Shown in pieces: positions 4,567-63,423 of a stretch of DNA of 64,000 bases (position 1 is its first letter; every line of letters starts with the position of its first letter). Source of the DNA: Hymenopus coronatus. Taxonomy: Eukaryota > Arthropoda > Insecta > Mantodea > Hymenopodidae. The notes under the pieces are model-generated. The model was not told where the DNA came from. It was given only the letters and a program-made list of their open reading frames with translations, and made no database searches. Made by a program: the position numbers and the translations under genes. The stretch covers positions 113,642,176-113,706,175 of the forward strand of contig CM060897.1 of the NCBI GenBank assembly GCA_030762935.1, given 5' to 3'.

Positions 4567-5080
4567 GTAACAATAGTACGAATGTACAAACATAGTGTAT
4601 AGAGAAGGTATTGCATTCCATCAAAAAACTCGATACTGAGATTTCACCGGAAATGCACGTTTTAGGGTCCCCTGTGTGCAAAAAGAAGCATTTTCAGAAA
4701 AAAAAAAAAAAAGGTCTTTGTTTCTGTCAGTATAACCGTGAACACGATAACTCAAAAACGAAGAATCGGTAAAATACAAAATTTGGTGTATACCTTAAGT
4801 ATCTTCCATGAATGCGACATGAAAATTTTGACGTAAATCCCTCCACCCCTTAAACTACTCTTTACATGGAAAGTTTTTGATTTTTTGTCTAAAAAATGGC
4901 TCTAACGATTTTGATTAAAATACCGATATTAAAACTATTTAGGCACATCACAAATAAAATATATATCTTGAATTGTCTGGAAATAGTTTGTGAAGACCTT
5001 TTCTTCTGAATGAATTTCATTGTATTAGGCACAACTGGTAAACCGTAGGAGACCTACAACATGAAAAATGTAAATGTAAA
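4567..5080 (-). repeat. Family H fragment, 3' half
   Basis: Starts with the palindromic end 'gtacaaacatagtgtataga' and proceeds through the minisatellite and mid region. It stops at about 5080, where sequence from the same family continues in the opposite orientation, forming an inverted pair. Confidence 0.8.
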
Positions 5081-5419
5081 TTGTTAGAGCCATTTTGAGT
5101 AGAGCAAAAGTTTAAAAAATTTGTTCATGTAAACGGTAGTTGGGAATAGCAGAATTTTCTTGAAAAGCTACGTGTCGTATCCTGGCAGATGCTAAACTTA
5201 AATATTTAGTTTGGTATTTAACGGGCCTTTCGTTTTTGAGTTGTGCTGCACAGAGACACATACCGACACACGCGGAACTTTTTCTAAAATGTCTTCTTTG
5301 TGCTCAGGGGAATTCAAAACAAATTTTCCGGTGAAATCTCTACATCGAATTTTTAGGTGTAATATAATAGATTTTCTACCCACTATGTACATCGTACATA
5401 CGGACTAGAGAAAGTAAAA
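5081..5419 (+). repeat. Family H fragment, 3' portion
   Basis: Runs from 'gttagagccattttgagtag' to the terminal 'ctagagaaagtaaaag'. With the preceding minus-strand segment it forms a tail-out inverted arrangement that could fold on itself. Confidence 0.8.
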
Positions 5420-5480
5420 GTCTAACGTGATGCATTCACATGACCTTCTCCGTAACAAATTATTGTTAATAAGCTTAACA
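5420..5480 (+). repeat. Family H 5' end fragment
   Basis: About 60 bp only: 'gatgcattcacatgac', 'cttctccgtaacaaattatt', ending at 'aagcttaac'. It directly follows the 3' end of the previous copy, a head-to-tail junction. Confidence 0.75.
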
Positions 5481-9415: not shown

Positions 9416-9532
9416 ATACTTTTACTTTCTCTACACGTACTATGTACATATTGAAATGCATCTAAAATTTGATACCGAGAATTCACTGGATCCCCTGAAT
9501 CCACAAAAAGCATTTTTAGAAAAAAAAAAGTC

Positions 9533-9566
<34 letters not shown>

Positions 9567-10218
9567 TGCGGGCACCATAGCTCCAAAACAAAAAGTCCTT
9601 TAAATACCAAAATTGGTATTTAAGTTCACTATATTCCAAGGATTTGAAACGAAGATTTTAAAGAAAATCCCCCAACTGCCCTTTACATGGAAAAATTTTC
9701 GAAAATTTTGATTTTCTCAAAAATGCCTCTAATGATTTTGATTAAATTATCGTATATTAAAGATATTTACATGACAAATAGAATGTATTTGTCATAAATT
9801 TTATGGGAATAGCTTATGAAGAAGTCTTTATTCTGGATGACGTTTGCGGAATTTTACATAACTCACAATTTATGTCATACACTTTTTTTTTCGCCTAGCT
9901 GACCGTTTTTTATATATTTCTTGCTATTGGTTTCAGTTTTAAAAAACTTCTACTACTCTCATACGGTAACTTTACAACTCTTTCACACAAATAATGGGAT
10001 TTCAATCCCATAGCAACTCCAGTTTAAAAACAAATGACTTTCGGGATAGCCTAGCGTATTCCCTTATTTCCCGACTACTTTTAAGCAACTGAGTAATAAG
10101 ATCATTTCTGCCAGTGTTTATCTCGATTAGCATAAAATAGATAGAAGAGTAAGCTTTTTGACATTAATTTGTTGCAGAGATGTAGAGAAAGTCATGTGAA
10201 TGGAACATAGCAATTTTT
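9416..10218 (-). repeat. Family H copy, full length
   Basis: 3' palindrome arm at 9418-9450 (one arm reduced), 5' end 'gtagagaaagtcatgtgaat' at 10183-10202. Its minisatellite has become a (TG)n tract. Confidence 0.9.
9534..9565. repeat. (TG)n microsatellite
   Basis: About 16 TG units at the minisatellite position of the surrounding family H copy. Confidence 0.95.
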
Positions 10219-10324
10219 TAAAAATTACATTTATACTATTCAAAACTTGCAGAAATTGAATATTTTAGATTTTCACAAGTTTAAAGTGGTGTATCGCCAT
10301 TCGCTTTTTGTTCTAATCTCACTT

Positions 10325-11165
10325 TTTACTTTCTCTATACGAACTATGTACATAGTGTATAGAGCAGGTAAATGCACTCTAGCAAAAAATTCGATACCGA
10401 GATTTCACCGGAAATATATGTTTTAGGGTCCCCTGTATCCAAAAAAAGTATTTTGAGAAGAAGGTCCGTGTGTGTCCGTGTGTTCGTGTGCCTTTGAACA
10501 CCATAACTCAAAAATGAAAAGTCGGTAAAACACTAAAGTTGGTATTTAAGTTTAGTATCTTCCAGGGATGCGACACGAAGATTTTGAGAAAAATCCCCCC
10601 ACCCCAAACTACCCTTTACATGGAACATTTTTTGAAAGTTTTGATTTTCAAAAAAATAGCTCAAACGATTTTGATTAAAATATCGTATATTAAAGATATT
10701 TACCTGACAAATAAAATGTATATCTTGAATTTTCTGGGAATAGCCTCTGAAGACTACTTTATTCTGGGTCAATTTTACGGAATTTTGCATAACTGCTAAA
10801 CCGTAAGAGATGGACAAAAACTTACCACACAACAAATGTAGAGTACTTTAAAACACATTATTTATTATATAATTTTTTTTCTCCTAGAGATGATTGTTTT
10901 TGAGATATTCCTAATTTTTGGTTTCAGCTATAAAAACCATGCCTTTCTCATACAGGTCTTTGTGAACTCGTGTCAAACAAGGAACTTCAGTCACATAGCA
11001 ACCAGCTTTTGACCATCTCTTTAACCTATGGTACCCCCTTAATAAGACTGCTTCTGCAAATTTTTTCTCGATTAGAAGGAAGTAAATAGGAGCATAAGTT
11101 TTTTAACAATAAATAGTTGCAGAGAAGTAGAGAAAGTCTTGTGAATGAAACACATCAGATTTTTC
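10325..11165 (-). repeat. Family H copy, full length, young
   Basis: Intact palindrome at 10325-10366 and intact 5' end (cacatcagatttttc). It lies 107 bp from the preceding copy in the same orientation. An 86-codon frame at 10539-10799 recurs in other young copies. Confidence 0.92.
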
Positions 11166-12765: not shown

Positions 12766-12936
12766 ATAAAAACCTATTTCGCCAGAAAATATATTGGAGC
12801 TCTAGTTATAATACAAATAAATTATGAATATTATTAAGTAAATTAGTAGCTGGATACAGAAAGAAAACAAAATAAATAATGCATATTATAACAAGTATAC
12901 TATAACGTTTTATGACGTTTTATACTATAAAGTTTT

Positions 12937-13795
12937 ATATTCTCTACACATACCATGTACATAATGTATAGAGTACGTATTATATTGCACCCAAAAATCC
13001 GATACTGAGATTTCATCAGAAATACATATTTTGAGATCCCCGAATCCAAAAAGCATTTTTAGAAAAATATCCATGTGCGTCTCTCTGTCTATCAGTATAT
13101 GTGTTTGTGTTTATGGGCAGCATAGCTCAAACACGAAAATTCCTTTAAACACCAAACTTGGTATTTAACTTCATTATCTTCCAAAGATAGGATCGAAAAT
13201 TTTCAAGAAAATTCCCCCACCCCAACTATCCTTTACGTGGGAAAATTTTAGAAAATGTTAATTTTCTCAAAAATGGTGGTATATTAAAGATATTTTACAA
13301 AACAAATAAAATGTATATCTTGAATTTCCTCTGAAGACATCTTTATTCTGAATGAATTTTGCGAAGTTTTGCATGCCTGGTAAACCGTAAGAGATAGGCA
13401 AAAACGTACTACTCCAAAAATATAGAGCTCGTTAAATCACAATTTATGTTATATGCATTTTTCCCCTGTAGTTGGCCGGTTTTAAGATATTCCTTGTTTT
13501 TGATTTCAGTTTTAAAATACTTAATACTTTTCTCATGCGGGAACTTGTCAATGCCTGTCCACGCAAAGAATCGGATTTCTATACCACAGCAACCACATTT
13601 TAAAACACTTGACTGTCAGTTTAGCCTAGTGTATTCAGTAATTTCCATATACTTGTAAGAAACTAAGTAATAAAACCGTTTGTGCTAATTTTTATCTCAA
13701 TTAGCATGAAGTAGATAGAAGAATAAAATTATTAACAATAATTTGCTACACAGAGATAGAGAAAGTCATGCGAATGGAGCACATCATATTTTTTC
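12937..13795 (-). repeat. Family H copy, full length
   Basis: 3' palindrome 'tctctacacataccatgtac' at 12950; 5' end 'gatagagaaagtcatgcgaa' near 13755. Abuts an inverted partial copy at about 13810. Confidence 0.88.
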
Positions 13796-14532: not shown

Positions 14533-15414
14533 AAAAATATGATGTGTTACATTCCCATGTCTTTCTCTAGCTGTTCTATAAGCTTCTTACATAAGATTGT
14601 TCTTCTTTCTGCACCTTGCTAATCGAGGTACTCATTAGCACAATGTTCCTATTACATAGTTCCTTATAAGTAGGAAGAAAATAAGAAAATACACTAGGCT
14701 AAACCGATAGTCAAATGTTTTAAAAGCTGTCGTTATGCGATTTTCATTACAAATTGCTTCTTTTGTTGGCCCGGAGTAGAACAAAAGAAAACGGACACTC
14801 CCGTCAGAGAAAAGTATAGGTATTTCACAACTGAAACTAGTAACATTGAATACCACGAAAATGGTAAGCTCCACGAAAAAAATGCATATGACATAACTTG
14901 TGTATTTTAACAAGACCTACACATTTTGTAAAGTAAGTTTTTGTCTATCTCTTACGGTTTACTAGTTATTCCAAATTAAGCCAAATGCATCCAGATAAAA
15001 CAGGTCTTTAGAAGCTATTCCAGAAAATTCAAGATATACATTTTATTTGTCAGGTAAATGTCTTTAATGTACGGTATTTTAATCAAAATCTTTAGATCTA
15101 TTTTTAAGAAAATCATAAATTTTGAAAAATTTCCATGTAAAGGGTAGTTTGGGGTGTTGGGATTTTTCTCAAAATCTTCGTGTCGCATCCCTGGAAGATA
15201 CTGAACTTAAATACCAAGTTTGGTATTTTAGGTACTTTTCGTTTTTGAGTTATCGTGTTCACAGACACACGGACCTTTTTCTGAAAATACTTTTTTTGGA
15301 TACGGGGGGAGTCCTAAAACATGTATTTCTAGTGAAATCTCGGTATCGAATTTTTGGTGGAATTCAATACTTCTCTATCCCTATGTACATTGTACATACG
15401 GGGCTAGAGAAAGT
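14533..15414 (+). repeat. Family H copy, full length
   Basis: 5' end 'aaaaaatatgatgtgttac'; 3' end 'ctatgtacattgtacatacg' then 'gctagagaaagta'. The internal palindrome (taccaagtttggtatttta) is intact near 15212. Confidence 0.92.
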
Positions 15415-15597
15415 ATGAATGAAATATGTGAGTACAACCATCAGCTGCTCTTCAGAAACTCTCTTCGTAGGGACATTAGACGAAGACTTTTCCTCGAATG
15501 CTGATTTGGATAATTCAATGCCTTCTTATTCACTGCCATACCAGGCTCATCACTAGAGCGAGCGGTTTTTTTTCCAGAACGAGTATAGAAACTTATC

Positions 15598-16085
15598 GGT
15601 CGCGCCGTGGCCGAGTGGTTAAACCACTCGCCTGTCACCAAGGCGGCTCAGGTTCGATCCCAAGTGTCGCCCTCCGAGGTGTAATGGCTACCATGCTAAA
15701 TTTATATACCCAAAGTCGCAGGTTAAAACCCAGCGGAGGACGATGGATTTTTTCGGGCGTAAAAATCTTTAGTATGGCTTCCATCGGAAGGGAAGTAAAA
15801 CCGTGGGTCCCGTGTCGTATATTTACGGCACGTAAAAAGAATCTCAAGCCTGATAAAGAGGTCTCTGAGTAAAATGAAGTGGTATTTCACGCCCAGTATA
15901 GAATGGGACGCTGAGAACTACAGCAGTTAAAGATCGTCCATAAATAAAAGGCCATTTCATTTCTTTTCGATCCCAAGTGACCGCATGTGGGATTTGTGGT
16001 GGATAAAACGGCAGGCTTTCTCCGGGTTTTCTGATTTCTCCGCCATCGCATTCCACCGTGCACCATCCGTGTATTATTTAGAATC
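15598..16085 (+). mobile_element. SINE-B, split by a SINE-D insertion
   Basis: The head is 'cgccgtggccgagtggttaa' with box B 'ggttcgatccc', resembling serine/leucine-type tRNA heads. It is interrupted after 'ttcgatcccaagtg' and resumes at 15966 with the same 14 bases, then 'gaccgcatgtgggatttgtg' and 'ctccgccatcgcattccacc'. Confidence 0.85.
15667..15965 (+). mobile_element. SINE-D, 299 bp, inside SINE-B
   Basis: tRNA-like head 'gtgtaatggctaccatgct' with box B 'gcaggttaaaaccc'. The body contains 'atggcttccatcggaaggga' and ends near 'aaagatcgtccataaataaa'. The exact 14-bp duplication (15653-15666 and 15966-15979) sets both boundaries. Other copies lie at 40197-40390 (minus) and 60925-61115 (plus). 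Confidence 0.9.
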
Positions 16086-21881: not shown

Positions 21882-22745
21882 AAAAATCTAATGTGTTCCA
21901 TTTACATGACTTTCTCTACATCTCTGCTACAAATTCTTGTTAGAAAGCTTACGCTTCTATTTACTTCATGCTAATTGAGACAAAATTAAAAGAAATCGTC
22001 TTATTACCTACTTCCTTGTAAGTAGAAGCGAAATAAGGGAGCATCATAGGTTAAATGATAACCAAAAGATGGTTACTATGTGACTGATGTTCCTGTGTTT
22101 GTATGGACAGGAATTGTTGAATTCCTGTATGAGAAAAGTATGTTTTTTTAAAGCTGATACCAAAACCAAGGAGTATTTAAAAAAACGATCAACTCCACGA
22201 AAAAAATGTAAATAAGATAAGTTGTGTGTGTTAAGGTGCTCTACATTTTTGTATTGGAAGTTTTTGTCCATCTCTTACGATTTAGCAGTTATGCTAAATT
22301 CCGTAAAACTCGTCCAGAATAAAGACTATTCCCAGAAAATTCAAGATATACATTTTATTTGTCAGGTAAATATCTTTAATATACGAAATTTTAATTAAAA
22401 TCTTTAGAGCCATTTTGGAGAAAATCAAAATTACCGAAAAAATTTCCAAATAAAGGGTAGTTTGGGTTGGGGGGATTTTTCTCAAAATCTTCGTTTCGCA
22501 TCTCTGGAAGATACTAAACTTAAATACCAACTTTGGTATCTTACCGACTTTTCGTTTTTGAGCTATCGTTTTCACAGTCACACGGAAATACATACACACG
22601 GACCGTTTTCCGAAAATGTTTTTTTTAGATAAAGGGGACCATAAAACATATATGTTTTCGGTGAAATCTCGGTATCGAATTTTTGAGTGGAGTGCAAAAC
22701 CTTCTCTATACACTATGTACATAGTGCGTATAGAGAGAGTAAAAA
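21882..22745 (+). repeat. Family H copy, full length, young
   Basis: 5' end 'aaaaatctaatgtgttccat'; near-perfect 3' palindrome 'tatacactatgtacatagtg'. It carries the recurrent antisense frame, open here for 161 codons (22779 to 22294) because its ATG lies just outside the element. Confidence 0.93.
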
Positions 22746-25045: not shown

Positions 25046-25653
25046 AATGGGAATAAGGAGTACACAAGGTTAAAGAGACAGTTAAATCCTTTAAAAGTTG
25101 GTTGCTATGTGGTTGAAATCCGCTTCACTGCTTGACCAGGAATTGGCAAATTCCTGTGTGTGAAAATGTTAAGTATTTTAAAACTGAAACCAATAATAAA
25201 GAATGCCTCAAAAGTGGTCAACAACGAAAAAATTTAGAAGATATAAATAGTTTGTTTTAACCGGATCTACATTTTTATGCAGTGAGGTGATGTCTATCTC
25301 TTATGGTTTATCAGTTATGCAAAATTCAGCAAAAGTCATCCAGAATAAAGAGGTCTTCAGAGGCTATCCCAAAAAGTTCAAAATACGTATTTTATTTCTC
25401 ATGTAAATATCATTAATATACGGTATTTTAATCAAAATCATCAGAGCCATTTTTTAAAAAAAACAAAACATTTCCAAACATTTTCATGTATACGGTAAAT
25501 TGGGGTGGGGATTTTCCCTCAAAATATTCCTGTGGCATATGCTAAACTTGAGAGATACTAAACTTAAATACCAAGTTTGGTAATTTACCGAGATTTTGTT
25601 TTTGAGTTTTCGTGCTCACGGACATAAACACACAGGGACCTTTTTCTAAAAAT
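25046..25653 (+). repeat. Family H copy lacking both ends
   Basis: From 'aataaggagtacacaaggtt' to the minisatellite and 'gacctttttctaaaa', where the next copy starts directly. Confidence 0.8.
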
Positions 25654-26498
25654 CTGATGTGTTCCATTCACATGGCTTTCTCTAAGTTTCTGTAACAAGT
25701 TATTGTTAATAAACTTATTCTTCAATCCACTTCATGCTAATCGATATAAACATTATCAGACCTGGTCTTATTATTTAGTTGCTTATAACTAGACGAGAAA
25801 TAGAGAAATACAGTAGGCTTAACTGACAGTCAAATGTTTGAAAATGTGGTGTCTGTGGGATTGCAATCCGTTTCATTGTTTGGTCAGGAGTTGACAAATT
25901 TCTATATCAGAAAGGTATTTTAAAACTGAAACCAATAACAGGATTATCTCGAAAACGGCCAACTCCAAGAAAAAAACACGCATGGCATAAATTGAGTATT
26001 TTAAGGAGATCTACATTTTTCTGTTGAAGTTTTTGTCCTGTCTTACGGTTTATGTAAACTTCAACAAAATTCTTGCAGAATAAAGAGGCTCTTCAGAGGC
26101 TATTTTCAGAAAGTTCAAAATATTAATTTTATTTGTTAAATATATAAAATATACGGTATTTTAATCAAAATTCTTGGGGCCATTTTTGAGGGAAACAAAA
26201 TTATCGCAAATTTTGCCGTGTACAGTGTAGTTTGCGGTGGGAAGATTTTCCTGAAGCACCCTTGAGAGATAGTAATTCACCGTAATTTCGTTTTTGAGTT
26301 ATCGTGTTCACAGACACATGGACACACGGACACGAACACACACATACAGAGACATACGCGCACACACACCTTTCTGTAAATACGTTTTTTGTTTTGATAC
26401 CGTGGACCATAAAGCGTGTATTTCTGGTGTAAAATTTTTGGGCGGAGTGCAAGACTTTCTCTCCCTACGTACTATGTGGTGTGTAGAGAAAGTAAAAA
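25654..26498 (+). repeat. Family H copy, full length
   Basis: 5' end 'atctgatgtgttccattcac' abuts the broken end of the previous copy. The 3' end 'gtgtagagaaagtaaaaa' is duplicated by the SINE-C that follows. Confidence 0.9.
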
Positions 26499-26830
26499 GG
26501 TCAGCTACTTAGCGCGGTGGTAGCGCTGCTGCTTGCTAAGCGGGAGACCTGGGTTAGATTCCCAGTACCGGCGTGGGGAATTTACCCCCACTAGGAGACT
26601 TAGACCGGGGTGCACTCAGCCTCGTGAGAAGCTACTTGATTGAGAAGTAGCGGCTCCAGGTACTGAGGACCGCACTAACCGGCTGGGAGGGATTCAAGGC
26701 GCTGACCACGTCTCATCCTTCATTACTGCACCCCATCCATGACGTCAGTCATGGATCGAGATGGGGGGCGCAGCGGCCGGCCGGTAGACCGTGGTTCCTT
26801 GTGAACTGTCGTGCTATGGATTTGTTATAA
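26499..26830 (+). mobile_element. SINE-C, 332 bp, 13-bp target duplication
   Basis: tRNA-like head 'tagcgcggtggtagcgctg' with box B 'gggttagattccc'. The body runs through 'gcaccccatccatgacgtca' and ends in 'gtgaactgtcgtgctatgga'. The flanking 13-mers gagaaagtaaaaa (26486-26498, 26831-26843) are the family H terminus itself. Confidence 0.92.
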
Positions 26831-27049: not shown

Positions 27050-27404
27050 AAAACCTGATGTGCTCCATTCGCATGAGTTTCTCTACCTGTTCTAAATATA
27101 AACTCTTACAGAAGATTATTGTAAAGAAATTGTTTAATTACTGGCTTTGTTGTAAGTAGGAGGAAAGTTAGGCTATTCACAAGGCTAACGCCATAGTAAA
27201 ATCTTTTTAAAGCTAACGCTATGTGAGACCATTGAAATTAGATTTTCTTTGACCAGGAGTAAAATAAGAGAGGTATGAAACGAAGGATTACTTCCGGTGG
27301 AGGTTTGCTGAAAATCATGACCTTGGAGAGTGCAGAACTTAAATACATGGAAATATGACTTACCGACATACACGCATACACAGCTTTTTCTAAAAGTACT
27401 TTAT
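27050..27404 (+). repeat. Family H copy with large internal deletion
   Basis: 5' end 'aaacctgatgtgctccattc'. Only the 5' quarter and a piece around 'ttccggtggaggtttgctga' remain before an inverted copy begins. Confidence 0.75.
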
Positions 27405-28230
27405 TACTTCATCTACACGTACTATGTAAATAGTGTATAGAGAAGGTATTGTATTTCACCCAAAAATTCGATACCGAGATTTCACCGAAAGTCCAAATAA
27501 AGGCATTTTTAGAAAAAGATCCGTCTGTGTGTGTCTGTCTATGTAAGTGTTTGTGGACCTCATACCTGAAAAACGAAAAGCTGATTAAATACCAAACTTT
27601 GTATTGAAGTTCAGTATCTTCCAAGGATGCGACTTGAAGATTTTCAAAAAACCACCCAACTACCTTTGTATGGAACATTTTTCGAAAATTTTGATTTTCT
27701 CAAAGATGGCTTTAACGGTTTTGATTACAACACCGTATAATAAAGATATTCACCTCACAAATAATATTTATACTTTGAATTTGTTGGGAATAGTCTCTGA
27801 GGAGGTGTTTATTCTGGTTGAGCCTTGCAGAACTTTGCATAACGGTTAAATTGCATGAAATAGACAAAAGCTTAGTACACAAAAACTAGATCTCGTTAAA
27901 ACACATAATTCATGCTAATACGTTTTTCTTGTAGAATTAATCGTTTTTCGAGATATTCATTGTTATTGGTTTCAATTTTAAACTAATTAACTTTTCTCAA
28001 TCGGGATCGTGCAAATCAAACCGAACCTCAATTGTTTCACATAGTAACCAGTTATCGCTTTAGTCTAGTGTATTCCCTTATTTACTTCCTATTAACAAGG
28101 AAGCAAGTAATAATACCAATTCTGCTAATGTTTATCTAGACTAGCATGACGTAGATAAAAGAATGCTTTTTGTTTGAAAAAATTGTTTCTGGAACTGCTA
28201 GAGAAGGTTATGTGAATGGATCCCTCAATT
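27405..28230 (-). repeat. Family H copy, full length
   Basis: 3' palindrome 'tacacgtactatgtaaatag'; 5' end decayed ('ctagagaaggttatgtgaat'). It forms an inverted pair with the preceding fragment and is followed by a plus-oriented 3' end. Confidence 0.88.
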
Positions 28231-28239
28231 TGTTATATT

Positions 28240-29947: not shown

Positions 29948-30722
29948 TTTTACTTTCTCCATATATAATATGTATATAGTAGGTAGCTACAGAAGATATT
30001 GTATTCCCCTGTCGATATTCACTGGAAATACTTAATGTAAGATCCCCTGAAACGTAATCTGAGACAAAAGCTCGCGCGCGCGTGTGTGTGAAGAACAAAA
30101 TTACTAAAAAACTAAAAATTCTTAACTATATTTGATATTTAAGCTCAATAATTACCATGAATGAGACACAAAGATTTTCAAGAAAAATCACCCACCCCAA
30201 ACTACACTATACATACAAAAATTTGAACATTTTATTTTCTTAAAAATTGTTATAACGATTTTAATTAAAAGAACGTATATTATAGATAAAGTACACGTCA
30301 ACATGTATACCCTACATTCTCCAGGAATAGCTTCTGAAGTGCTCTTTATCCTGAATAATTTCTATATATCTGGTAAGCTGTAAGTGATAGATAAAAATGT
30401 AGATGTCGTTAAACCCCAAAACCTATATCACATACAGTTTCTTTTAGAATGTACCTTTCCTGAGATATTCCGGGTTATTGATTTCAAATTTAAAATAAAT
30501 ACTTTAATTTTTCTGTTTAAGAGAACGAACTTCAATGGCAATCGCATAGCGAAAGCTTTTATATGATTGACCGTCAATTTTGCCTAGTTTATTCCCTTTA
30601 ATCCCTTCTACTTATAAGGAATTAAATAATAAGATACTTCCTCCTAATGTTTATTTTGATTAGCATGATTGTTATCAGAGTAGGTACAGAAAGTCATGTG
30701 AATGGATGGCATACGATATTTT
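29948..30722 (-). repeat. Family H copy, old
   Basis: 3' palindrome 'tatataatatgtatatagta' is degraded and AT-rich; 5' end 'agtcatgtgaatggatggca'. It is the right half of the first R2 + family H unit. Confidence 0.82.
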
Positions 30723-31157: not shown

Positions 31158-31599
31158 TTTTATTTTCTCTGCATGTACTGTGAACGTAGTAGCTAGAGAA
31201 CACATTGTGTTCCATCCAAAAGTTTTATGTCGTGATTTCACCAAAAGTATATTTTCTGAATTCTCCTGCGACAAAAAAAGGAGGCATTTTTGGAACAAGA
31301 TCCGTGTGTGCGTGAACAACGTAACTCAAAAACTTAGTGTTTAAGTTCAGCATCTTCCAAGGATGCGACACGAAGATTTTCCAAAAAACTTCTTACCCTA
31401 AAGTACCCATTAAATTGAAACAATTTCGAAAATGTCATGTTTCTCAGAAATTACAAAAATTTGGTTAAAATACGTTTTATTAAAGATATTTACATGACAG
31501 ATATTTTGCATTTTCTAGGAGTAGCCTCAAAAGATATCTTCACTCCGATGAGATTTACATAATTGGTAAATCGTAAAAGGTGGACAATAAATTCCACAC

Positions 31600-31675
<76 letters not shown>

Positions 31676-32042
31676 GATCTTGTCAAAAAACACACTTTAC
31701 GTCATATACCTTTTTTATAAGTTAGTATATACGTTTTTCTGAGATATTCCTCGTAATTGATTTAAATTGTAAAATACTTAAACTTTTCTCAAATGTGAAT
31801 TTGTCATTCCTCTTTCTTTTGTTTTACTCCTGGTCATACAAGTAGATCCAAATTTTGAAAGATTTGACTATCGCTTTAGCGTAGTGTGTTCCTTTATTGC
31901 CCTCCTACTTAAAAGTAACTCCATTTTTGCTATGACGAATATCGATTATCATGAAGTAGATAGTAGAATAACTTGGTACGAACAGTTCCTTCAGACTGGG
32001 AGAAAAACTCATGCCAATGGAATACATCGGATTTTTTTCACC
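31158..32042 (-). repeat. Family H copy, old, with (AAT)n
   Basis: 3' end 'tgcatgtactgtgaacgtag', 5' end 'gccaatggaatacatcggat'. It follows R2 just as the copy at 29948 does. Confidence 0.82.
31600..31675. repeat. (AAT)n microsatellite
   Basis: About 25 AAT units within the family H copy. On the minus strand it produces a long poly-tyrosine frame with no biological meaning. Confidence 0.97.
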
Positions 32043-34485: not shown

Positions 34486-35347
34486 TTTTACTTTCTCTAC
34501 ACGTACTCTGTACATAGCGTATAGAGAAGGTATTGCACTCCACCCAAAATTCGATACCGAAATTTCACCGGAAATAAATGTTTTGAGTCACCCTGCATCT
34601 AAAAAGAGAATTTTTGGAAAAAGGTCCATGTGTGCGTGTATATCTGTGTGTGTGCGTGCGCGTTTGTGACAGTGGACAGCATAGCTCAAAAATAAAAAGT
34701 CCGTTTGTTATTTTCCAAGCATACGACACGAAGATTTTCAAGAAAATGGCCCACCACCAACTACACTTTACATTGAAAACATTTCGAAAATTTTTATTTT
34801 CTCTAAAACGGCTGTAACGATTTTGATTTAAATCACTTCTATTTAATATATTCACATGCCATATAAAATGTATATCTTGAGTTTTCTGAGAATAGCCTAC
34901 AAACAGCTCTTTATTCTGAATGAATTTTGAGGAATTTTGAATAACTGGTAAACCTTAAGAGATAGAAAAACATTTACTATACAATAAATGTACATCACGA
35001 TACAACACAAAATGTGTCATATATATTTTTTCATGGAGTTGATCGTTTTTGAGATATTCCTTGCATTTGGTTTCAGCTTTGAAAAATGTATACTTTTCTC
35101 ATACAGGAATTCGTGATGTCCAGTTCATACAAACAAAGAAACTTCAGTGGCATAGCAACCAGCTTTTGACTATCATTTTAACGTATGGCACTCCCTTATT
35201 TCGCTTCTACTTACAAGGAATCAAATAATAACACTATTTCTGCTAATATTTTCTCAATTAGCATGAAGTAAATAGAAGAATATGCGTATTAACAATAATT
35301 GTTACAGCTATGTAGAGAAAGTCATGTGAGTGGAACACATATTTTTT
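34486..35347 (-). repeat. Family H copy, full length
   Basis: 3' palindrome 'tacacgtactctgtacatag'; 5' end 'agtcatgtgagtggaacaca'. The minisatellite is GT-rich (34625-34670). Confidence 0.92.
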
Positions 35348-40437: not shown

Positions 40438-41296
40438 TAAAAACATCTGAGGTGTTTCATTCACGTGACTTTCTCTACATCTCTGCAACAAAATATTGTT
40501 AAAAAGTTTATGTTTCTATTTACTTTATGCTAATCGAGAAAAAATCAGCAGAAATTGTCTTATTACTTGCTTCCTTGTAAGTAGAAGCGAAATAACAGTG
40601 TACCATAGGTTAAAGTGATAGTCAAAAGCTGTTTGCTATGCTGACTGAAGTTTCTTTGTTTGTATGGATGGGAGTTGATAAAGCCCTGTGTGAGGAAAGT
40701 ATAATTTTTGAAAGCTGAAACCAAAAACAAGGAATATGTCAAAAACAATATCTTCAAGAAAAAATACATATAACATAAATTGTGTGTTTTAAAGTGTTCT
40801 ACATTTTTTGTATGGCAAGTTCTTTTCCACCTCTTGCGGTTTAGTAGCTATGCAAAATTCCGTAAAATTCATCCAGAATAAAGTAGACTTTAGAAGCTAT
40901 TCTCAGAAACTTCAAAATATACATTTTATTTGTCAGGTAAATATCTTTAATATACGTTATTTTAAACAAAATCGTTAGAGCCATTTTTGAGAAAATAAAC
41001 ATTTTCGAAAAAATTTCCATGTAAAGGGTAGATAGGGGAGGGGGGATTTTTCTCAACATCTTCGTGTCGCATCCCTGGAAAATACTAAACATAAATACCA
41101 TGCTTGGTATTTTACCGCCTTTTCGTTTTTGAGTTATCGTGTTCACGGACTAACGGACACGCACACGTGGACCTATTTCTGAAAATACTCTTTTGGCTAT
41201 ATTTTCGGTGAAATCTCGCTATCGAATTTTTGGGTGGGATGATTGCAATACCTTCTCCATACACTATGTACACAGTACGTGCAGAGAAAGTAAAAA
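40438..41296 (+). repeat. Family H copy, full length, young
   Basis: 5' end 'catctgaggtgtttcattca', 3' end 'gcagagaaagtaaaaat'. Just left of it, 'tacgaggggcacta' (40409-40422) resembles a mariner terminus. Confidence 0.94.
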
Positions 41297-41311: not shown

Positions 41312-42222
41312 AAAATCTGATGTGTTCAATTCACATGACTTTTTCTACAACTCTGCAATAAATGATTGTTAAAAAGGTTATGCTTCTATTTACTTCCTGC
41401 TTATCGAGAAAAAATTAGCAGAAATAGTCTTATTACTTGCTTCCTTGTAAGTAGAAGCGAAATAAAGGAGTACCATAGGTTAAAGTGATGGTCAAAAGCT
41501 AGTTGCTATGTGATTGAAGTTTCTTTGTTTGTATGGACACGAGTTCACAAAGTCCTGTATGAGAAAAGTATGTTTTTATAGCTGAAACAAAAAACAAGGA
41601 ATATCTAAAAAACAACCAACTCCAGGAAAAAATGTGTATAACATAAATTGTGTGTTTTAAAGTGCTCTGCATTTGTTGTGTGTTAAGTTTTTGTCCATCT
41701 CTTATGGTTTAGCAGCTATGCAAAATTCCGTAAAATTGACCCAGAATAAAGTAGTCTTCAGAAGCTATTCCCAGAAAATTCAAAATATATATTTTATTTG
41801 TCAGGTAAATATGTTTAATATACGAAATTTTAATTAAAATCATTAGAGCCATTTTTTATAAAATCAAAATTTTCGAAAAAGTTCCAGGTTAAGGGTAGTT
41901 TGGGGCGGGGGTGGGATTTTTCTTAAAATCTTCGTGTCGAATCCCTGGAAGATAGTAAAACTAAATACCAAGTTTGATATTTTACCGACTTTTCGTTTTT
42001 GAGTTATCGTGTTCACAGGCACACGGACGGACACACGGACACACTGACACACGGACACACGGACACACGGACACACACGGACCTTTTTCTGAGAATACTT
42101 TCTTGGATACAGGGGACCCAAAAACATATATTTCCAATGAAATCGCGGTATCGAATTTTTTGGTGGAATGCAATACCTTCTCTATACACTATGTACATAA
42201 TGCGTATAGAGAAAGTAAAAAT
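41312..42222 (+). repeat. Family H copy, full length, longest minisatellite
   Basis: Lies 15 bp after the previous copy in the same orientation and is closely similar, so the pair is either tandem insertion or duplication. The 8-base unit acacggac and variants repeat about eight times (42017-42085). Cleanest 3' palindrome: 'tatacactatgtacataatg'. Confidence 0.95.
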
Positions 42223-43869: not shown

Positions 43870-44724
43870 TTTGTCTATCACATATTGTCAATGTTCATAG
43901 CAGAGATACAGAAAGCATTGTATTTCAGCTCAGTGTTTCTAAACTGAAATTTCACCGAAAATAAAACGTTTTCAGTACCCCTGAATCAAAAAAAAAAAAA
44001 GAAAAAAAAAAGGAATTTTAGAAAAAGACGTGTTCGTGCGTGTCTGCAACTGTAAGCAGGACAATTCAAAATCGAAAAATAGGATTAGTATTTATGTTTA
44101 GTACCTTCCAATGATGCGATACGAAGATTTTGTAGAAATCCCCGCCCCAAACTACCCCTTACAAGGGGAAAATATTGTTTTTTTTTCTCTCTCAAAAATA
44201 GCACCAACAATTTTGATTAAGGTTTGATTAAAATACCGTATATTAAACTAATTTACATGAAACATAACATGTATATCTTGAATTTTCTGTAAATAGTTTT
44301 TGAAGAGCTCTTTATTCTGTAAGAATTTTTCTGAATTTTGCATAACTAGTAAAGCGAAAGATAAAGACAAAAACTTACTTCGTAAAATGTAGATCTGGTT
44401 AAAATATACAATTTGTGTAACTGATCTTTTTTCGTTCATCATTTTTTAGATATTCCTTGTTATTGGTTCAAGTTTTAAAGTGATTAAACATTCTCATACG
44501 GGAATTTGTCAACTGCTGTCAATATTTGTCAAATCATATAGCAACCGGCTTTTAAAAGATTTGAGTAACATTAGCCTAGTGTATTCCCTTCTACTCACAA
44601 GAAAAGCAATGAGACCATTTCTGCTAATGGATTAGCAAAAGGTAAATAAAGGAATGAGCTTTACAGAAATAATTTGTTTCGGAGATGTAGAGAAAGCCAT
44701 GTGAATTTAACACATTACATTTTT
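43870..44724 (-). repeat. Family H copy, old
   Basis: Weak 3' end ('gtcaatgttcatagcagaga'); 5' end 'gatgtagagaaagccatgtg'. Poly-A/poly-T slippage has expanded two sites (43988-44010, 44170). Confidence 0.82.
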
Positions 44725-45751: not shown

Positions 45752-46240
45752 CGTTTACTTTCTCTGCACGTACTATGTGCATAGTTTACAGAGAAGGTAT
45801 TGCATTACAAACAAAAACTTGATACCATGATTTCATTACAAAACACGTTTTAGGATCCCCTGTATCTAAAAAAAGCATTTCTAGAAAAATGTCAGTGTGT
45901 AAAATGTGTATGGAGTGTGTGCGTTGGTATGTGTGTTGGTGTGTGTATGTTTGTTTAGTGTGTGTGTTGGTATGTGTGTTTGTGTGTGTATGTTTTTGGA
46001 ATGTGTGTGTTGGTATGTGTGGTGTGTGTTGGTATGTGTGGTGTGTGTTGGTATGTGTGTTGGTGTGTGTATGTTTGTGGAGTGCGTGTGTATGTATTAT
46101 GTGTGTTGTCTGTGTTGGTATGTGTGTGAAGTGTGTGTGTTGATATGTGTATGTTTGTGGAGTGTGCGTATTATGAGTGAGTGAGTGTTGGTATGTGTGT
46201 TGGTGTGCGTATGTTTGTGGAGTGTGTGTTTGTATTTATT
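45752..46240 (-). repeat. Family H 3' end with expanded GT-rich satellite
   Basis: Palindrome 'tgcacgtactatgtgcatag' at 45769. From about 45890, the minisatellite position, GT-rich repeats continue for 340 bp ('ggtatgtgtgttggtgtgtg', 'tatgtttgtggagtgtgtg'). No family H sequence returns after it. Confidence 0.85.
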
Positions 46241-48064: not shown

Positions 48065-48896
48065 AAAACTCTGACGTGTTCCATTTACCTAACTTTTACT
48101 AGCTGTTCCAGATACAAACTTTTCATACAAAAGATTACTACTTTATCTACAATACTGTCATTAGCATAATTGGTCTTATTACTTGTGAATAGAAGGAAAA
48201 TAAGGTAATACATTATGCTAAAGCAATATTCAAGTTTTTAAAAGTTATCTATGTTTGTGAAACTATTGAGGTTTGGTTCGCTTTCCGTGATCCCGTTTCA
48301 GAAAAGTTAGGTATTTTAAAACTGAAACTAATAACAAGGAATGCCTCAGCTCTACATAAAAACATAATTTTAAATAAATTATGTGCTTTAAATGAGACCT
48401 ACATTTCTTCTGTCTCTTACGATTTAACCGTTATGAAAAATTCTGCAAAACTCATGCTGATTAAAAAGGTCTTCAGATGCTATTCTCAGAAAATTTAAAA
48501 TATTACTTTTATTTGTGATGTAAATATATTTAATATATTGTATTATAATCAAAATTCTTAAAGCTATTTTTGAGAAAAATAAACTTTTCAAACATTGTTG
48601 AATGTAAAGGGTAGTTTGTGTGGGGGAATTTTCTTGAAAATCTTGTCATATACTTGGAAAATACTTAACATTAATACGAAGTTTGGTATTTTCGAGTCCC
48701 TTCGTTTTTGAGCTATACTGTCCACAGACACTCTCACAGAGGCCTTTTTCTAAAATTGCTTTTTTTTTGGACTCAGTGGAACTTAAAACATATTTCCGAT
48801 GAAATCTCGATATCGAAATTTTGTTTGAAATACAATACCATCCCCAGCTATTATGTACATTGTATGAGCATACATACTAGATAAAGAAAAAGTTGA
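48065..48896 (+). repeat. Family H copy, full length, old
   Basis: 5' end 'actctgacgtgttccattta'; 3' palindrome 'ctattatgtacattgtatga' followed by 'ctagataaagaaaaag'. Confidence 0.88.
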
Positions 48897-50526: not shown

Positions 50527-51369
50527 AAAAATCCGATATGTTCCATTCCCATAATTTTTTCTTCATTTCTATAATACATTATTGTTAATAGGCTCACTCA
50601 TTTATGCTTGATGCTAATCAAGGTAAACATTACCAGAAATGGTCGTATTACTTGCTTCTTTATAAGTAGATTAGAAATAAGGGAATACACTAGGCTAAAC
50701 TGACAATCAAATGTTTTAAAATGTGGTTACTGTGAAATTAAAATCAGTTTCTTTGCATGGCCAGGAGTTGATAAGTTTCAGTATGAGAAAACGTTTAAGT
50801 ATTTTAAAACTGAAAACAATAACAAGAAAGATTTCGAAAACGGTCTACTTCACGAAAAAAAGCTATATGACATATTTTAAGTAGATTTACATTTTTGTGT
50901 AGTAAATTTGTGCCTATCTGTTACAGTTTACCAGTTATGCAAACTTCAGAAATATTCATCCAGAATAAATCGGTCTTAAGATGCTATTCTCGGAATATTC
51001 AGAATACACATTTTTTGTCATGTAAATGTCTTAAATATAAGAGGTTTTAATCAAAATCGTTAGAGCCATTTTGTGAGAAAATTAAACTTTTAGGTTAGTT
51101 GGGGATGGGGGAGTTTCTTGAAAATCTTCATGTCGCATCCTTGGAAGAAACTGAACCTAGATAGCAAGTTTGATATTTAACGGACTTTTCGTTGTTAGCT
51201 ATGCTGCTCACAGACACACTCACTCACACGGACATTTTTCTAAAAATGCTTTTTTGGCTTCAGAGGGTCCCAGAAAAGGTACCTCCAGTGGAATCTCGGT
51301 ACCTGAAGTTTTGGATGCAATACAATACTTTCTTTATTCTCTATGTGCATAGTACGTTTAGAGAAAGTA
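50527..51369 (+). repeat. Family H copy, full length
   Basis: 5' end 'aaatccgatatgttccattc'. The 3' end 'gtacgtttagagaaagta' is cut by a mariner inserted at its TA. Confidence 0.9.
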
Positions 51370-52560
51370 TTAGGGCCGTTAATAAATCCTTAGAAAATCC
51401 AAGAAAAGTTTGCATTTAGTAGCTATTGTCTCCTACTAATGACAGTTAAAGTTTCAGCTTTTTTCCATGTGGTTTCGTGTCTCGAGTCAATTGAATCAAC
51501 AATTTTTTGCCTACTTATAAATATGGAAATAAACAAGTTTCCTGCGGTGATTAAACACTTCTATTTAAAAGACTTAACACCAAAAAGAGATATAAGCAGA
51601 GTTGGATCAAATTCATGGCACTCCTGCTCCTGAGTTTACAGAAATTTACAATTGGGTAAATCAATTTTAAAGTGGCCGTACATCCACAAATGGTGAACAT
51701 CGTTACAGGGGTCCAATAGGAAGACTTCTTTAAAAATGATTGACAAAATCCCGGATTCGGTTTTGAGGGATCAACGAATCAAAGTTCGAGAAATAGTAGA
51801 GGGTCTAGGCACACAAAAAGGTACAGTGTTGTCAATTTTGTACCAAAAATTAGGTCTGACAAAGGTCTCGGCAAGTTGGGTGCCGCATTTGCTCTCAATG
51901 GAGAATAATTGCAATCGTGTGATCATTTCGGAAACTGGTTTGGCACCTTTCCTTCGCAATTCTGAAGAGTACCTGCATCGATAAATAATTTTGGATGAAA
52001 CATAAGCACACTACTACACTCCAGAGATAAAAGTACAGTCGATACTGTGGGTTTTAGGCAAACCGGCTCCGAAAAAGGAAAATGTGAAATCTGCAGAGAA
52101 GGTTTTTTGGGATTCTCGCGGAATCATCTATATTTATTACTTACAAAAAGGAAATACGATAAATGGAGAGTGTTATGCATCGTTATTGTACCGGTTGAAT
52201 GGAGATATCAAGAAAATACACCCTCGTCTGGCAAAGAAAGATTCTCTTTCAGCATACATGCGCAGTTTCGATGGCGAAAATTGTGGAATTTAGGTTCAAA
52301 TTACTATATCATCCACTGTATTCACCATATTTGGCCTCTAATGATTATTTTTATTTATATACTTCAAAAAGTGGCTCGGTGGAAAACGATTCACGTCTAA
52401 TGAAGAGGTCTCTCCCAAACAGATACCTATTTAGAGGGCCTTCCGAAATCCTGAAAAAATTGTATCGAGCTAAATTAGATTATGTTGAAAAATAAAACAA
52501 AATCTACTAATAGCATTTGTTTTTTCTATCTTTTTCTAAGGACTTATTGAACATCCTACG
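51370..52560 (+). mobile_element. Mariner, TIRs present, transposase broken
   Basis: The left end (ttagggccgttaataaatcc) and inverse right end (cgtaggatgttcaataagtc) agree with the ends of 56086-57295. TA lies at 51368-51369 and 52561-52562. Translation: VIKHFYLKDLTPK (HTH start), MIDKIPDSVLRDQRIKVREI, VPHLLSMENNCNRV, then LDET with the first catalytic Asp and a stop for the usual Trp. YHPLYSPYLASNDYFY holds the third Asp; LDYVEK ends the protein. The 'HDNAR' block is eroded. At least three stops or frameshifts separate the open segments. Confidence 0.88.
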
Positions 52561-54513: not shown

Positions 54514-55399
54514 AAAAAATCTGATGTGTTCCATTCATATGACTTTCTCTATATCTCTGCAACAAATTATTGTTTAAAAGCTTATGCTTCTATTTACTTC
54601 ATACAAATCGAGAAAAGAATCAGCAGAAATAGTCCTATTTCTTGCTTCCTTGTAAGTAGAAGCGAAATAAGGGAGTACTATAGGTTAAAGTGATAGTCAA
54701 AAGTTGGTTTCTATGTGACAGAAGTTCCTTTTTATTTTTTTTTTTGTATGAACTGGAATTGCTAAGCTCCTGTATGAGATAAGCATGTTTTTTAAATCTG
54801 AAACCAAAAAATAAGGAGTATCTCAAAGACGATCAACACCATGAAAGAAATGTATATGAAATAAATGGTGTGTTTTAAAGTGGTCTACATTTTTTTTGGT
54901 ACATTTTTGTCCATCTCTTACGGTTTAGCAATTATACAAAATTCCGTAAAGTTCACCCAGAATGAAATAGTCTTCAGAGGCTATTCCCAGAGAATTCAAG
55001 ATATACATTTTATTTGTCAGGTAAATATCTTTAATATACGCTATTTTAATCAAAATCGTTAGAGCCATTTTTGAGAAAATCAAAATTTTCGAAAAAGTTC
55101 CATGTAAAGGGTAGTTTGGGGTGGGGGGATTTTTCTCAAAATCTTAGTGTCGCATCCCTGAAAGGTACTAAACTTAAATACCAAGTTTGGTGTTTTAGCG
55201 ACTTTTCGTTTTGAGTTATCGTGTTCACAGTCACACTGACCGTCGGACACACACGGAACTTTTTCTGAAAATACTTTTTTTGGATACAAGGGACCCTAAA
55301 ACATATATTTCCGGTGAAATCTCGGTATCGAATTGTTCGGTGGAGTGCAATACCTTCTCTATACACTATGTACATAGTACGTGTAGAGAAAGTAAAAAT
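54514..55399 (+). repeat. Family H reference copy, full length
   Basis: The clearest complete copy. From the left: 'aatctgatgtgttccattca'; the subterminal ACTTTCTCTATA (ACTTTCTCTACA in most copies); a 'cgaaataagggagtac' block; 'ggcta ttcccag' (with a gap) near 54980; and a G-run 'gtttggggtgggggga' at 55115. An internal palindrome lies near 55176-55196, then a short minisatellite (55225-55255) and 'ccggtgaaatctcggtatcg'. It ends in the long palindrome 55355-55395 and 'gtaaaaatt'. I infer a non-autonomous Helentron-like element; a foldback or MITE-type element is the main alternative. It splits a LINE, whose undisturbed paralogue is at about 8290. Confidence 0.93.
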
Positions 55400-61544: not shown

Positions 61545-61913
61545 TTAGCTCTAACAATGTTGATTAAAATAAAATAAACGTAAGATACATATATATTTAG
61601 ATTTTCGACACATTTATTGCTATTGGTTTCAATGTTAAAATACTTATACTTTTCTTAAACGGAATTTGTCATTCCTTTTTCATTTGTTTTATTCCTGGCC
61701 ATACAACGAAAACCGAACTTCAAAGTCAATGGCATATTGCGAGAGTCTAGATTATTCTTTCATTTCCCTTCTACTAATTAAGAACTAAGTAATAAAAGCA
61801 TATCTGCTAATGCTCATCTCGACCAACATCAAGTAGTTAGAAGAATAATGTTGTGTAAGAACAGTTTGTTATAGACTATGTAGAGAAATTTATGTGAATG
61901 TAACACATTTTTA
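61545..61913 (-). repeat. Family H 5' half
   Basis: 'attgctattggtttcaatgt' to 'tatgtagagaaatttatgtg' and 'aatgtaacaca'. Its 5' end touches the 3' end of the next copy, with only T residues between. Confidence 0.8.
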
Positions 61914-63423
61914 CTTTCTATAGATAGTAGGTACCTACCTAGAACACAGATAGAGAAGATATTGCACTCCATCCAAAAATTCGATACTGAGATTTCACCG
62001 GAAAGGATCCTCTGTATCCAAAAACAACATTTTTAGATAAAGGTCCGTTTGAATGTCCGTGCGCCTGTGAACACGATAACTCAAAAACAAAAACTCGGTA
62101 AAATACCAAATCTGTATTTAAATTTAATAACTTCCAAGGATGCGACACGATGATTTTGAGAAAATTCTCAGGAGGTATAATTTCAACTTTCTACAGTTTT
62201 GTACCGATTTTTCTGTAATTTTGCTGTGCTGTGCTTTCCAAGATAAAAAGTAACTTACACACGTAATATGTAAATATATTGCATAATCAAAATGTTCCAC
62301 GCGCCTCAAAATTTAAAAAATCGGATTTAAGTTTCTGAATTGGAATTTTAAAGCATGCACAAAAAGTTACCGGAGTGGTATTTCAATATATTTGATTTTT
62401 ATCTATAAAATTAATTGATTTCCCATAAACTCGTGTTGGTGTTAGAGTGGTTTCTTAGCTCGTAACATTACAATAGACTTTCCAATACATTCTAAAAAAA
62501 ATTAGCGGTATTTTAAACAAAAATATGAGTCGCATGGAACATTTTGAAAGTGTGAAATTGTAGTTCTGAGAAAAACGTAGTTTATAAAATAGTGTAATAA
62601 ATGCATTTATTGACTAGTAACGAATAAAGTCATTACGTTACTGCTGAAAATAGTTCACTAGACATTTCAACGCGTAGACAGTTAATGGCTACACGCCGTC
62701 CGTGGCTCCCGCGCCATTGCGCGATAATACTTCAGTCGATACGACTCAGTACAAATCACAATGCAATGCTCTTCCTCCTACTTTTATGGTGAGAAAATGC
62801 CATCACAAACATTCTGGAAACTTTTAGTAGAAACCGAAGGTTGCAGAAACATCTCGAATATCGGGAAGAATCAAAATGTCGCGAGGAGTCTCGCGATTCG
62901 AAGGACCCTGTTATGTTGCGCCATTGTTTTCCGTCGAACTACGATGTTTCAGTTGCGACGCGATGATGTTGAGAAAATTCTCCCCACCCCAAACTACCCT
63001 TTACTTGGGAAAATTGCATAAGTTTTATTATCTCAAAAATGCTACTAGAGATTTTGTTTAAAACACCTTATGTTAAAGATACATGATAAATGAAATGTAT
63101 ATCTTGAATTTTCTGAGAATAGAATCTGAAGAGCTGTTCATTCTGAATGACTTTTGCTGAACGTTGCATAACTGGTAATCCGTAACAAAGATACAAAAAC
63201 TTACTACACAAACAACATAGAGCTGGTTAAAATACACAATTTATGTCTTGTACATTTTTTAGCGGAGTAAACCATTTATGAGGTATTCCTTGTTTGTGGT
63301 TTCAGTTTTAAATTACTTACAAATAAACAAATTTCAATCACATAGCAATGAGCCTTTGAAAGGTTTTATTATCCTTTAACCTAGTGTATTCTCTTATCTC
63401 CCTTCTACTTTTAAGGAAGCAAA
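61914..63423 (-). repeat. Family H copy with a 784-bp insertion
   Basis: 3' end 'tttactttctatagatagta' at 61912 with a reduced palindrome. Interrupted at 62170-62953, it resumes and reaches 'ttctacttttaaggaagcaa', where a non-LTR fragment replaces its 5' end. Confidence 0.88.
62170..62953. other. 784-bp unidentified insertion between 29-bp direct repeats
   Basis: The bordering family H segment 62141-62169 is repeated at 62954-62982 with two mismatches. Both repeats share two departures from the other copies (cgatgat, aaaattctc), so they arose by duplication here. The insert has no A tail. It changes from AT-rich (62170-62640) to near-balanced GC (62640-62950, e.g. 'gtggctcccgcgccattgcg') and has a frame of 86 codons at 62761-63021 without a known motif. 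Confidence 0.7.

Follow-up and report, generated by a model that had tools for sequence, protein, structure and literature searches.

Evidence for an abundant HINE family and its decayed Helentron partners in the genome of Hymenopus coronatus

What kind of element has filled this part of the Hymenopus coronatus genome, and what moved it? The window, by which we mean the whole 64-kb stretch of DNA that was analysed, is crowded with pieces of a single repeat, here called family H. A sequence-only reading of the window had proposed a dominant, HINE-like family of about 50 segments. We conclude that H is almost certainly a HINE, a non-coding rolling-circle transposon of about 873 bp that belongs to the Helentron superfamily; this is the best explanation of the evidence as a whole.

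There can be little argument about the existence of the family. Allowing at most one mismatch, ACTTTCTCTACA occurs at 34 sites in the window, whereas 100 dinucleotide shuffles average 0.52 sites and never exceed 3, and a blastn search with the focal copy (54514-55399) returns 68 HSPs within the window. A profile of 884 positions, built from 16 full-length window copies, likewise gives 68 matches. These cover 27,858 bp, or 43.5% of the window, and 16 of them reach both ends; the reversed window, used as a control, has one match. The dominant family proposed earlier is therefore real. The sequence common to its copies is bounded by T-tracts at start and stop. None of the nine stop-to-stop open reading frames of at least 120 aa in the window matches Pfam at E 0.01, hence no coding capacity is found in H.

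End anatomy was read in the 16 window copies and in a set of 57 drawn from the window and from loci that were fetched. The sense strand is the minus strand of the window, and in that orientation the 5' part of the alignment reads TTTTT-ACTTTCTCTACAC-GTACTATGTACATA-GTGTATAGAGAAGGT followed by a GTCY/GTGT tract, while the part after the core reads TGTAGAGAAAGT, then CATGTG-AATGGAA-CACATCAGATTTTT. The order is thus T-tract, subTIR, an inverted copy that forms a hairpin with it, a GTCY-type microsatellite, core, 3' subTIR, small stem-loop and T-tract (Table 1). SubTIRs of the 12-15 bp kind seen in HINEs lie near both ends, ACTTTCTCTACA at the 5' end and TGTAGAGAAAGT at the 3' end. An inverted repeat just 3' of the 5' subTIR, together with a microsatellite, is a DINE-1-type arrangement. 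The latter is the internal short-period tract of the earlier reading; TRF arrays in other window copies have the units TGTC, GTGTGTCC, CACGGACA and ACGGACAC. Two of the earlier claims have to be turned around. The fixed 5' end is indeed a shared end at a T-tract, but it is the 3' end of the element. A palindrome of roughly the proposed 50 bp also exists (about 42 bp), but not at the 3' terminus: because the minus-strand order is that of DINE-1 and of the oyster HINE, this large palindrome is the 5' hairpin, made of the 5' subTIR and its complementary inverted repeat.

Table 1. Positions of family H features in the window
Feature	Position	Strand	Basis
Focal HINE copy, family H, full length	54514..55399	minus (sense strand)	profile positions 2-883 of 884 at 55397-54515
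5' T-tract of focal copy	55394..55398	minus	sequence; 81% of 104 five-prime ends have T at -1
5' subTIR ACTTTCTCTACA	55382..55393	minus	exact match
Inverted repeat complementary to 5' subTIR	55352..55366	minus	sequence; both form 5' hairpin 55352-55393
GTCY/GTGTCC microsatellite-like tract	55220..55259 (about)	minus	sequence
3' subTIR, TATAGAGAAAGT in focal copy, consensus TGTAGAGAAAGT	54542..54553	minus	sequence and alignment
Short 3' stem-loop, consensus ATGTG-AATGGAA-CACAT	54523..54541	minus	alignment; fold weak on its own
3' T-tract	54514..54519	minus	sequence and alignment
H copy, both ends	9420..10219	plus	profile
H copy, both ends	10324..11164	plus	profile
H copy, both ends	12933..13793	plus	profile
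H copy, both ends	14533..15412	minus	profile
H copy, both ends	21882..22744	minus	profile
H copy, both ends; 3' flank: older H copy, interrupted at T-tract GCATTTTT	25648..26497	minus	profile and flank scan
H copy, both ends	27403..28233	plus	profile
H copy, both ends	29948..30720	plus	profile
H copy, both ends	31158..32036	plus	profile
H copy, both ends	34486..35345	plus	profile
H copy, both ends	40441..41295	minus	profile
H copy, both ends	41312..42220	minus	profile
H copy, 5' end from profile position 13	43880..44724	plus	profile
H copy, both ends	48065..48879	minus	profile
H copy, both ends	50527..51370	minus	profile
Two H pieces head-to-tail, one T-tract in common	5071..5477	minus	profile and flank scan
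Two H pieces head-to-tail, one T-tract in common	61602..62168	plus	profile and flank scan

The two terminal structures are not equally convincing as folds. The 5' hairpin has a mean z of -2.9 against mononucleotide shuffles (102 five-prime ends folded), and the 3' stem-loop, with a mean z of -0.3 over 94 ends, is no more stable than its shuffles; beyond the 3' subTIR it is recognized by the sequence conservation of ATGTG-AATGGAA-CACAT. Covariation is thin: the 5' hairpin has 17 two-sided changes and 242 broken cells, the 3' stem-loop 4 and 134. Since two-sided changes are so few, we dropped covariation as proof of the hairpins and base their structure mainly on sequence conservation and anatomy.

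A few neighbours of H copies in the window deserve mention. The sole find of Rfam and ARAGORN in the window was a tRNA-Ser (GCT) at 26502-26572, at most 5 bp from the 5' end of one H copy (25648-26497), so that this copy adjoins either a tRNA gene or a tRNA-derived repeat. Directly after another copy an open stretch at 15480-15872 (SRRGRVVKPLACHQGGSGSIP...), which has no Pfam match, looks like the spurious reading frames found in tRNA-like dispersed repeats. A degenerate GT array of about 320 bp (45915-46235) begins where a truncated copy (45754-45911) stops, as if it were an expansion of the microsatellite of H itself.

Several known systems have the same plan. Helentron-Mo and HINE-Mo of the mite Metaseiulus occidentalis resemble H in subTIRs, 3' stem-loop, clusters and T-rich target without detectable duplication (PMC4067079). 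DINE-1/INE-1 of Drosophila, as described there, shares the order of 5' subTIR, inverted repeat, microsatellite, core, 3' subTIR and stem-loop, a likeness by description rather than by alignment; like H it is the most abundant repeat of its genome. The oyster element Cg_HINE of Crassostrea gigas (Vojvoda Zeljko 2020, PMC7492417) likewise has a subTIR with inverted repeat, a GTCY-type microsatellite, a 3' subTIR with palindrome, and T-T insertion; it is described as having no target-site duplication, and none is detectable in H beyond the T's. It carries satellite arrays between its modules, whereas the H consensus has no central array.

Insertion sites tell a similar story. In 81% of 104 ends a T precedes the 5' T4, and in 49% an A stands one base further out; after the 3' T5 (85 ends), T makes up 44-55% over six positions and G 1% at the first. 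The two flanks of a copy are no more alike than those of shuffled pairs (similarity 3.64 against 3.53, sd 0.28, with 685 of 2000 shuffles as high, for 14 both-ended window copies). Among 59 both-ended copies, 55 were readable at both ends; four had to be dropped for lack of the end motif or of sufficient flank. TTTTT stands on both sides in 29 of the 55, and none of the other 26 has a non-T variant common to both sides. Where H lies inside H, the consensus shows what the site looked like before insertion. There are five such sites, each of them in a T-tract, and the cleaner cases have gained about five T's. No target-site duplication is detectable beyond the T's, and since the tract is a homopolymer, a TTTTT duplication looks the same as T's encoded by the element; how the T's are divided between the two ends is also left uncertain in Thomas 2014 (PMC4067079). 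A consistent target-site duplication, which the sequence-only reading had named as an argument against itself, did not appear beyond the homopolymer in any of the three sets (14, 26 and 5 copies).

H is itself a frequent target of H. When the flanks of 104 five-prime and 97 three-prime ends were scanned, 37 outer flanks turned out to be H sequence. Direct head-to-tail joints, at about ten places, account for 17 of these, and eight lie at one A/T-tract (consensus 117-131), a hotspot of self-insertion.

How much of the genome is H? The assembly has 384 contigs and 3.127 Gb (3,126,739,099 bp), with (TTAGG)n at both ends of contigs C2 and C21 and at one end of C13, whose other end reads N; such telomeres occur in many arthropods. 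We sampled a ten-kb stretch at 20.0 Mb on each of contigs C1-C20, a set that leaves out the giant contig C21 (545.7 Mb). H is present in all 20 stretches and covers 67,524 of 200,000 bp, or 33.8%, with 3-67% per stretch and a bootstrap range over stretches of 25-43%. At E<=1e-30 the share is 30.7%, and the reversed sample gives a single match of 66 bp. Scaled up, this corresponds to about 2.4 million H pieces and about 0.58 million full copies (0.39-0.77 million). Extrapolated from the 20 stretches, roughly one third of the three-billion-letter genome seems to be H; the considerable Helitron contents cited in Thomas 2014 are 6% and 6.62% (PMC4067079). H differs from DINE-1 in abundance, since it accounts for about one third of the DNA sampled from a genome of 3.1 Gb. 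The earlier suggestion that the family has heavily shaped the genome agrees with this extreme density, although the density in the sample is lower than the 43.5% of the window.

The Kimura distance of 57 both-ended copies to their consensus runs from 0.064 to 0.364 with a median of 0.118, a value that is biased downwards, since similarity to the focal copy guided the choice of some of them (in L002-L008). The copies fall into a younger group of 32 (median 0.082 from its own consensus) and an older group of 25 (0.187). A search of the genome with the focal copy gave 14,197 first-look candidates, and among the 40 scored the closest other copy is 88% identical. H looks quiet now.

If H is a HINE, an autonomous Helentron with the same ends might be expected in the same genome. 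PF14214, the Rep domain, has 112 matches here, with every one of 147 candidates scored; the 14 control genomes yield no match. Nine weaker PF14214 loci were fetched (L031-L039), and two of them, L033 and L038, proved to be parts of the loci called A and B below. By inspection seven of the nine are of Helentron type, while L035 and L036 look canonical. According to Thomas 2014 (PMC4067079), a serine after the G of Rep motif 2 is diagnostic of Helentrons. It is present by pattern in six of the seven Helentron-type loci and by eye in the seventh (L039); two strong loci outside this set, L029 and L030, have leucine.

Locus A lies on contig C11 (L048 and L046). Its Pfam domains are, in order, DUF6570, Helitron_like_N, PIF1 and Exo_endo_phos_2. 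The Rep match (PF14214, E 2.4e-07, 31.6 bits against a cut-off of 28.9) is spread over several frames; its motif 2 reads VEFQMQGSPHEH, with the serine after G. The helicase (PF05970, E 2.9e-26) has a piece open for 618 codons, and the endonuclease (PF14529, E 1.7e-08) lies just 3' of it in broken frames. An intact fused protein is not seen in A because the frames of Rep and endonuclease are broken. The locus starts with the 5' end of H, one of 12 subTIR letters being changed, and continues through H positions 2-876 (E 4.7e-189) into the coding block; an H-like 3' end (E about 1e-4) follows about 8.9 kb from the start. A second H copy stands head-to-tail before it, with one T-tract in common. 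Rep, PIF1 helicase, Exo_endo_phos_2 and the serine signature are also the features of Helentron-Mo (PMC4067079).

Locus B is 85-90% identical to A, but most of its H part is replaced by a microsatellite, and other DNA interrupts it on the 3' side. At the cut (L047, C13:136952401-136962400, at about 5580 of the reverse complement) stands DNA that encodes reverse-transcriptase-like and GIY-YIG-like fragments, which by eye is suggestive of a Penelope-like element. A search with the helicase gave 100 matches in about 44 loci grouped by eye (71 of 592 candidates scored), and all scored matches except the query have stops or are fragments. Fragments of nearly equal score lie at C16:139.56-140.05 Mb with a spacing of about 155-172 kb, and others at mixed spacing at C21:498.19-498.63 Mb; both arrays look like large tandem or segmental duplications. 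The larger element behind these decayed copies probably moved H. The search for an autonomous Rep/helicase element with the same ends, which the sequence-only reading had suggested as a check, has thus turned up degraded Rep/PIF1/endonuclease loci, and Pfam finds no DDE or tyrosine-recombinase domain, the kind of partner that would speak for another class, in the nine partner pieces scanned.

The shared ends recur beyond locus A. When the Helentron 3' end is used as query (40 scored of 708 candidates), the matches in 14 loci other than A end at query position 629-633, where the T-tract stops, and those in two further loci run to 642. In another 17 rows the match is confined to the last letters and, mainly, the flank after A, six of these having the same 3' end; that flank (L046:8530-8700, GTGGGGGTCGTCTTATATT...) is a repeat itself. 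In all 11 loci compared (ten fetched and A) the 3' ends are alike, reading TAGAGAAAGT, ATGTGAATG, CATCAGATTTTT or close variants, and the flanks beyond them diverge at once. The 11-bp GTAGAGAAAGT is exact in eight of the 11; an identical subTIR of 11 bp is what a HINE and its autonomous Helentron have in common within a family. Fixed differences from H are a T for C after the subTIR and usually a T for G in the loop. The 5' end is another matter: locus A is the only partner in which the H-type 5' end was seen. The joint between H and Helentron is spanned in 15 loci besides A, B included (40 scored of 3,814 candidates). In 21 of the 40 scored places the match begins at position 318 or later, and at least 18 have no H-side piece reported beside them, so that many Helentrons may carry another 5' part. 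The partner also seems to insert into H, since three of ten autonomous 3' flanks match it (L052, L057, L058). A Rep/helicase/endonuclease partner with the same ends is what takes H from HINE-like to HINE; end anatomy, T-tract sites and partner all support what had been suggested from the letters.

One could turn the relationship around: H would then be the Helentron's 5' part, set free when termination occurred inside it at a site resembling a 3' end. Such a sequence does exist, in loci A and B, just 5' of the gene block. We nevertheless consider this origin unlikely, though it deserves serious attention. About half of the scored Helentron 5' regions lack the joint, and in a midpoint-rooted tree of 57 H copies and the H part of A, the latter nests inside H diversity, between the older copies and the younger ones, with a support of 90/90, short of the 95 that the tool takes as its mark. 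The H part of A is 0.187 from the older consensus and 0.236 from the younger, and of 52 diagnostic columns it agrees with the older in 28 and with the younger in 14. Its position inside H diversity leans towards an H copy that took genes along after its terminator was bypassed.

Locus A might instead be a Helentron inserted by chance beside H, the true partner being another, unseen element. H is dense enough for chance adjacency to be common, as the ten or so places with head-to-tail H-H joints illustrate, and many Helentron 5' regions have no joint. It is very improbable all the same: 15 more loci have this joint, and every one of the 11 Helentron 3' ends that were read resembles that of H, which makes the shared end independent of neighbourhood.

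A MITE mobilized by cut and paste, with a DDE transposase (e.g. Tc1/mariner) and TTTTT as target-site duplication, would also explain inverted sequence close to both ends and a net gain of about five T's at nested sites. Candidate enzymes abound. A DDE_3 search gave 13,126 first-look candidates, and all 150 scored exceed the cut-off (a 14-genome control matched in 3); the genes lie on many contigs, and many of the 150 are open for at least 300 codons, unlike the Helentrons. Tc1 is named the largest component in H. coronatus in one study (PMC12908712), and TcMar-Tc1 the largest DNA-transposon subclass in the earlier genome paper (PMC10415354). The thought that H had been filed under Tc1 in published annotations was dropped, as DDE_3 genes are truly abundant. 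H itself has asymmetric ends, with a hairpin at one and a stem-loop beyond the subTIR at the other; it sits in T-tracts with no TA duplication, no non-T variant is common to both flanks in 26 copies, and those elements that were found to carry its ends encode Rep, helicase and endonuclease. The Helentron partner largely refutes the MITE reading, to which we give next to no credence.

Canonical Helitrons, which lack the endonuclease, have TC...CTRR ends and insert between A and T, are present too, L029 and L030, both among the three best PF14214 loci, being of this type with RGLPHAH, but that H belongs to them is scarcely conceivable: L029 (10 kb) has no significant H match, those of L030 are a separate copy and a fragment, so that both were rejected as partners for want of H ends on the coding element, and H has subTIRs, T-tract insertion and ends that match Helentron-type loci with serine in motif 2.

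Returning to H as a HINE, we can suggest how it spread. The Helentron protein would have nicked H at its T-tract/subTIR/hairpin ends and copied it from them as single strands, which would then have inserted into T-tracts without target-site duplication; this may have happened in two waves or more. With T-tracts inside it and at its ends, H would itself have been a target, so that copies piled into and behind one another. In the partner subfamily the 3' terminator of an H copy was probably bypassed, giving an element that starts with H; alternatively, a gene block may have come to lie next to an H copy. HINE-Mo elements are simple deletion derivatives of their Helentron (PMC4067079), whereas here one partner locus holds nearly a whole HINE with an internal 3'-end-like site. 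A succession of autonomous sources, with A as one relic, would also be compatible with the tree, which has a single A-type 5' part.

Is any of this known already? An ancient Helitron (rolling-circle) burst has been reported in Hymenopus coronatus and Deroplatys truncata (PMC12908712). It is given there as a class, and the available text of that study describes no HINE or Helentron family, structure or partner; the word Helitron is absent from the available main text of the earlier paper (PMC10415354). We found no description of family H in the accessible mantis genome literature, supplements aside. Literature searches with three spellings of the subTIR letters gave no transposon paper by title, and those for Helitron with stick insects no lead by title. 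The H 3' end, as an exact 37-letter pattern with two ambiguous letters, is absent from the viral and prokaryote contigs searched. With the burst known as a class, what is new here is family H, its partner and the very high abundance of one family.

Our fuller picture is tentative, and we would put it a little below an even chance. One HINE family, with perhaps 0.4-0.8 million full copies, would occupy about a third of the genome, several times the cited 6-6.6%, and the source of its transposase would have been an element into which terminator bypass had already brought a HINE, so that parasite and driver had one 5' end. If this is true, we are dealing with extreme rolling-circle amplification, about 1 Gb from one non-coding family, whose decayed driver is still readable in the same genome. 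One could then ask how small a number of source genes is enough to fill a genome, why copies become nested when an element targets its own T-tracts, and whether a parasite becomes its own carrier through terminator bypass. For mantis repeat annotation it provides a concrete library entry.
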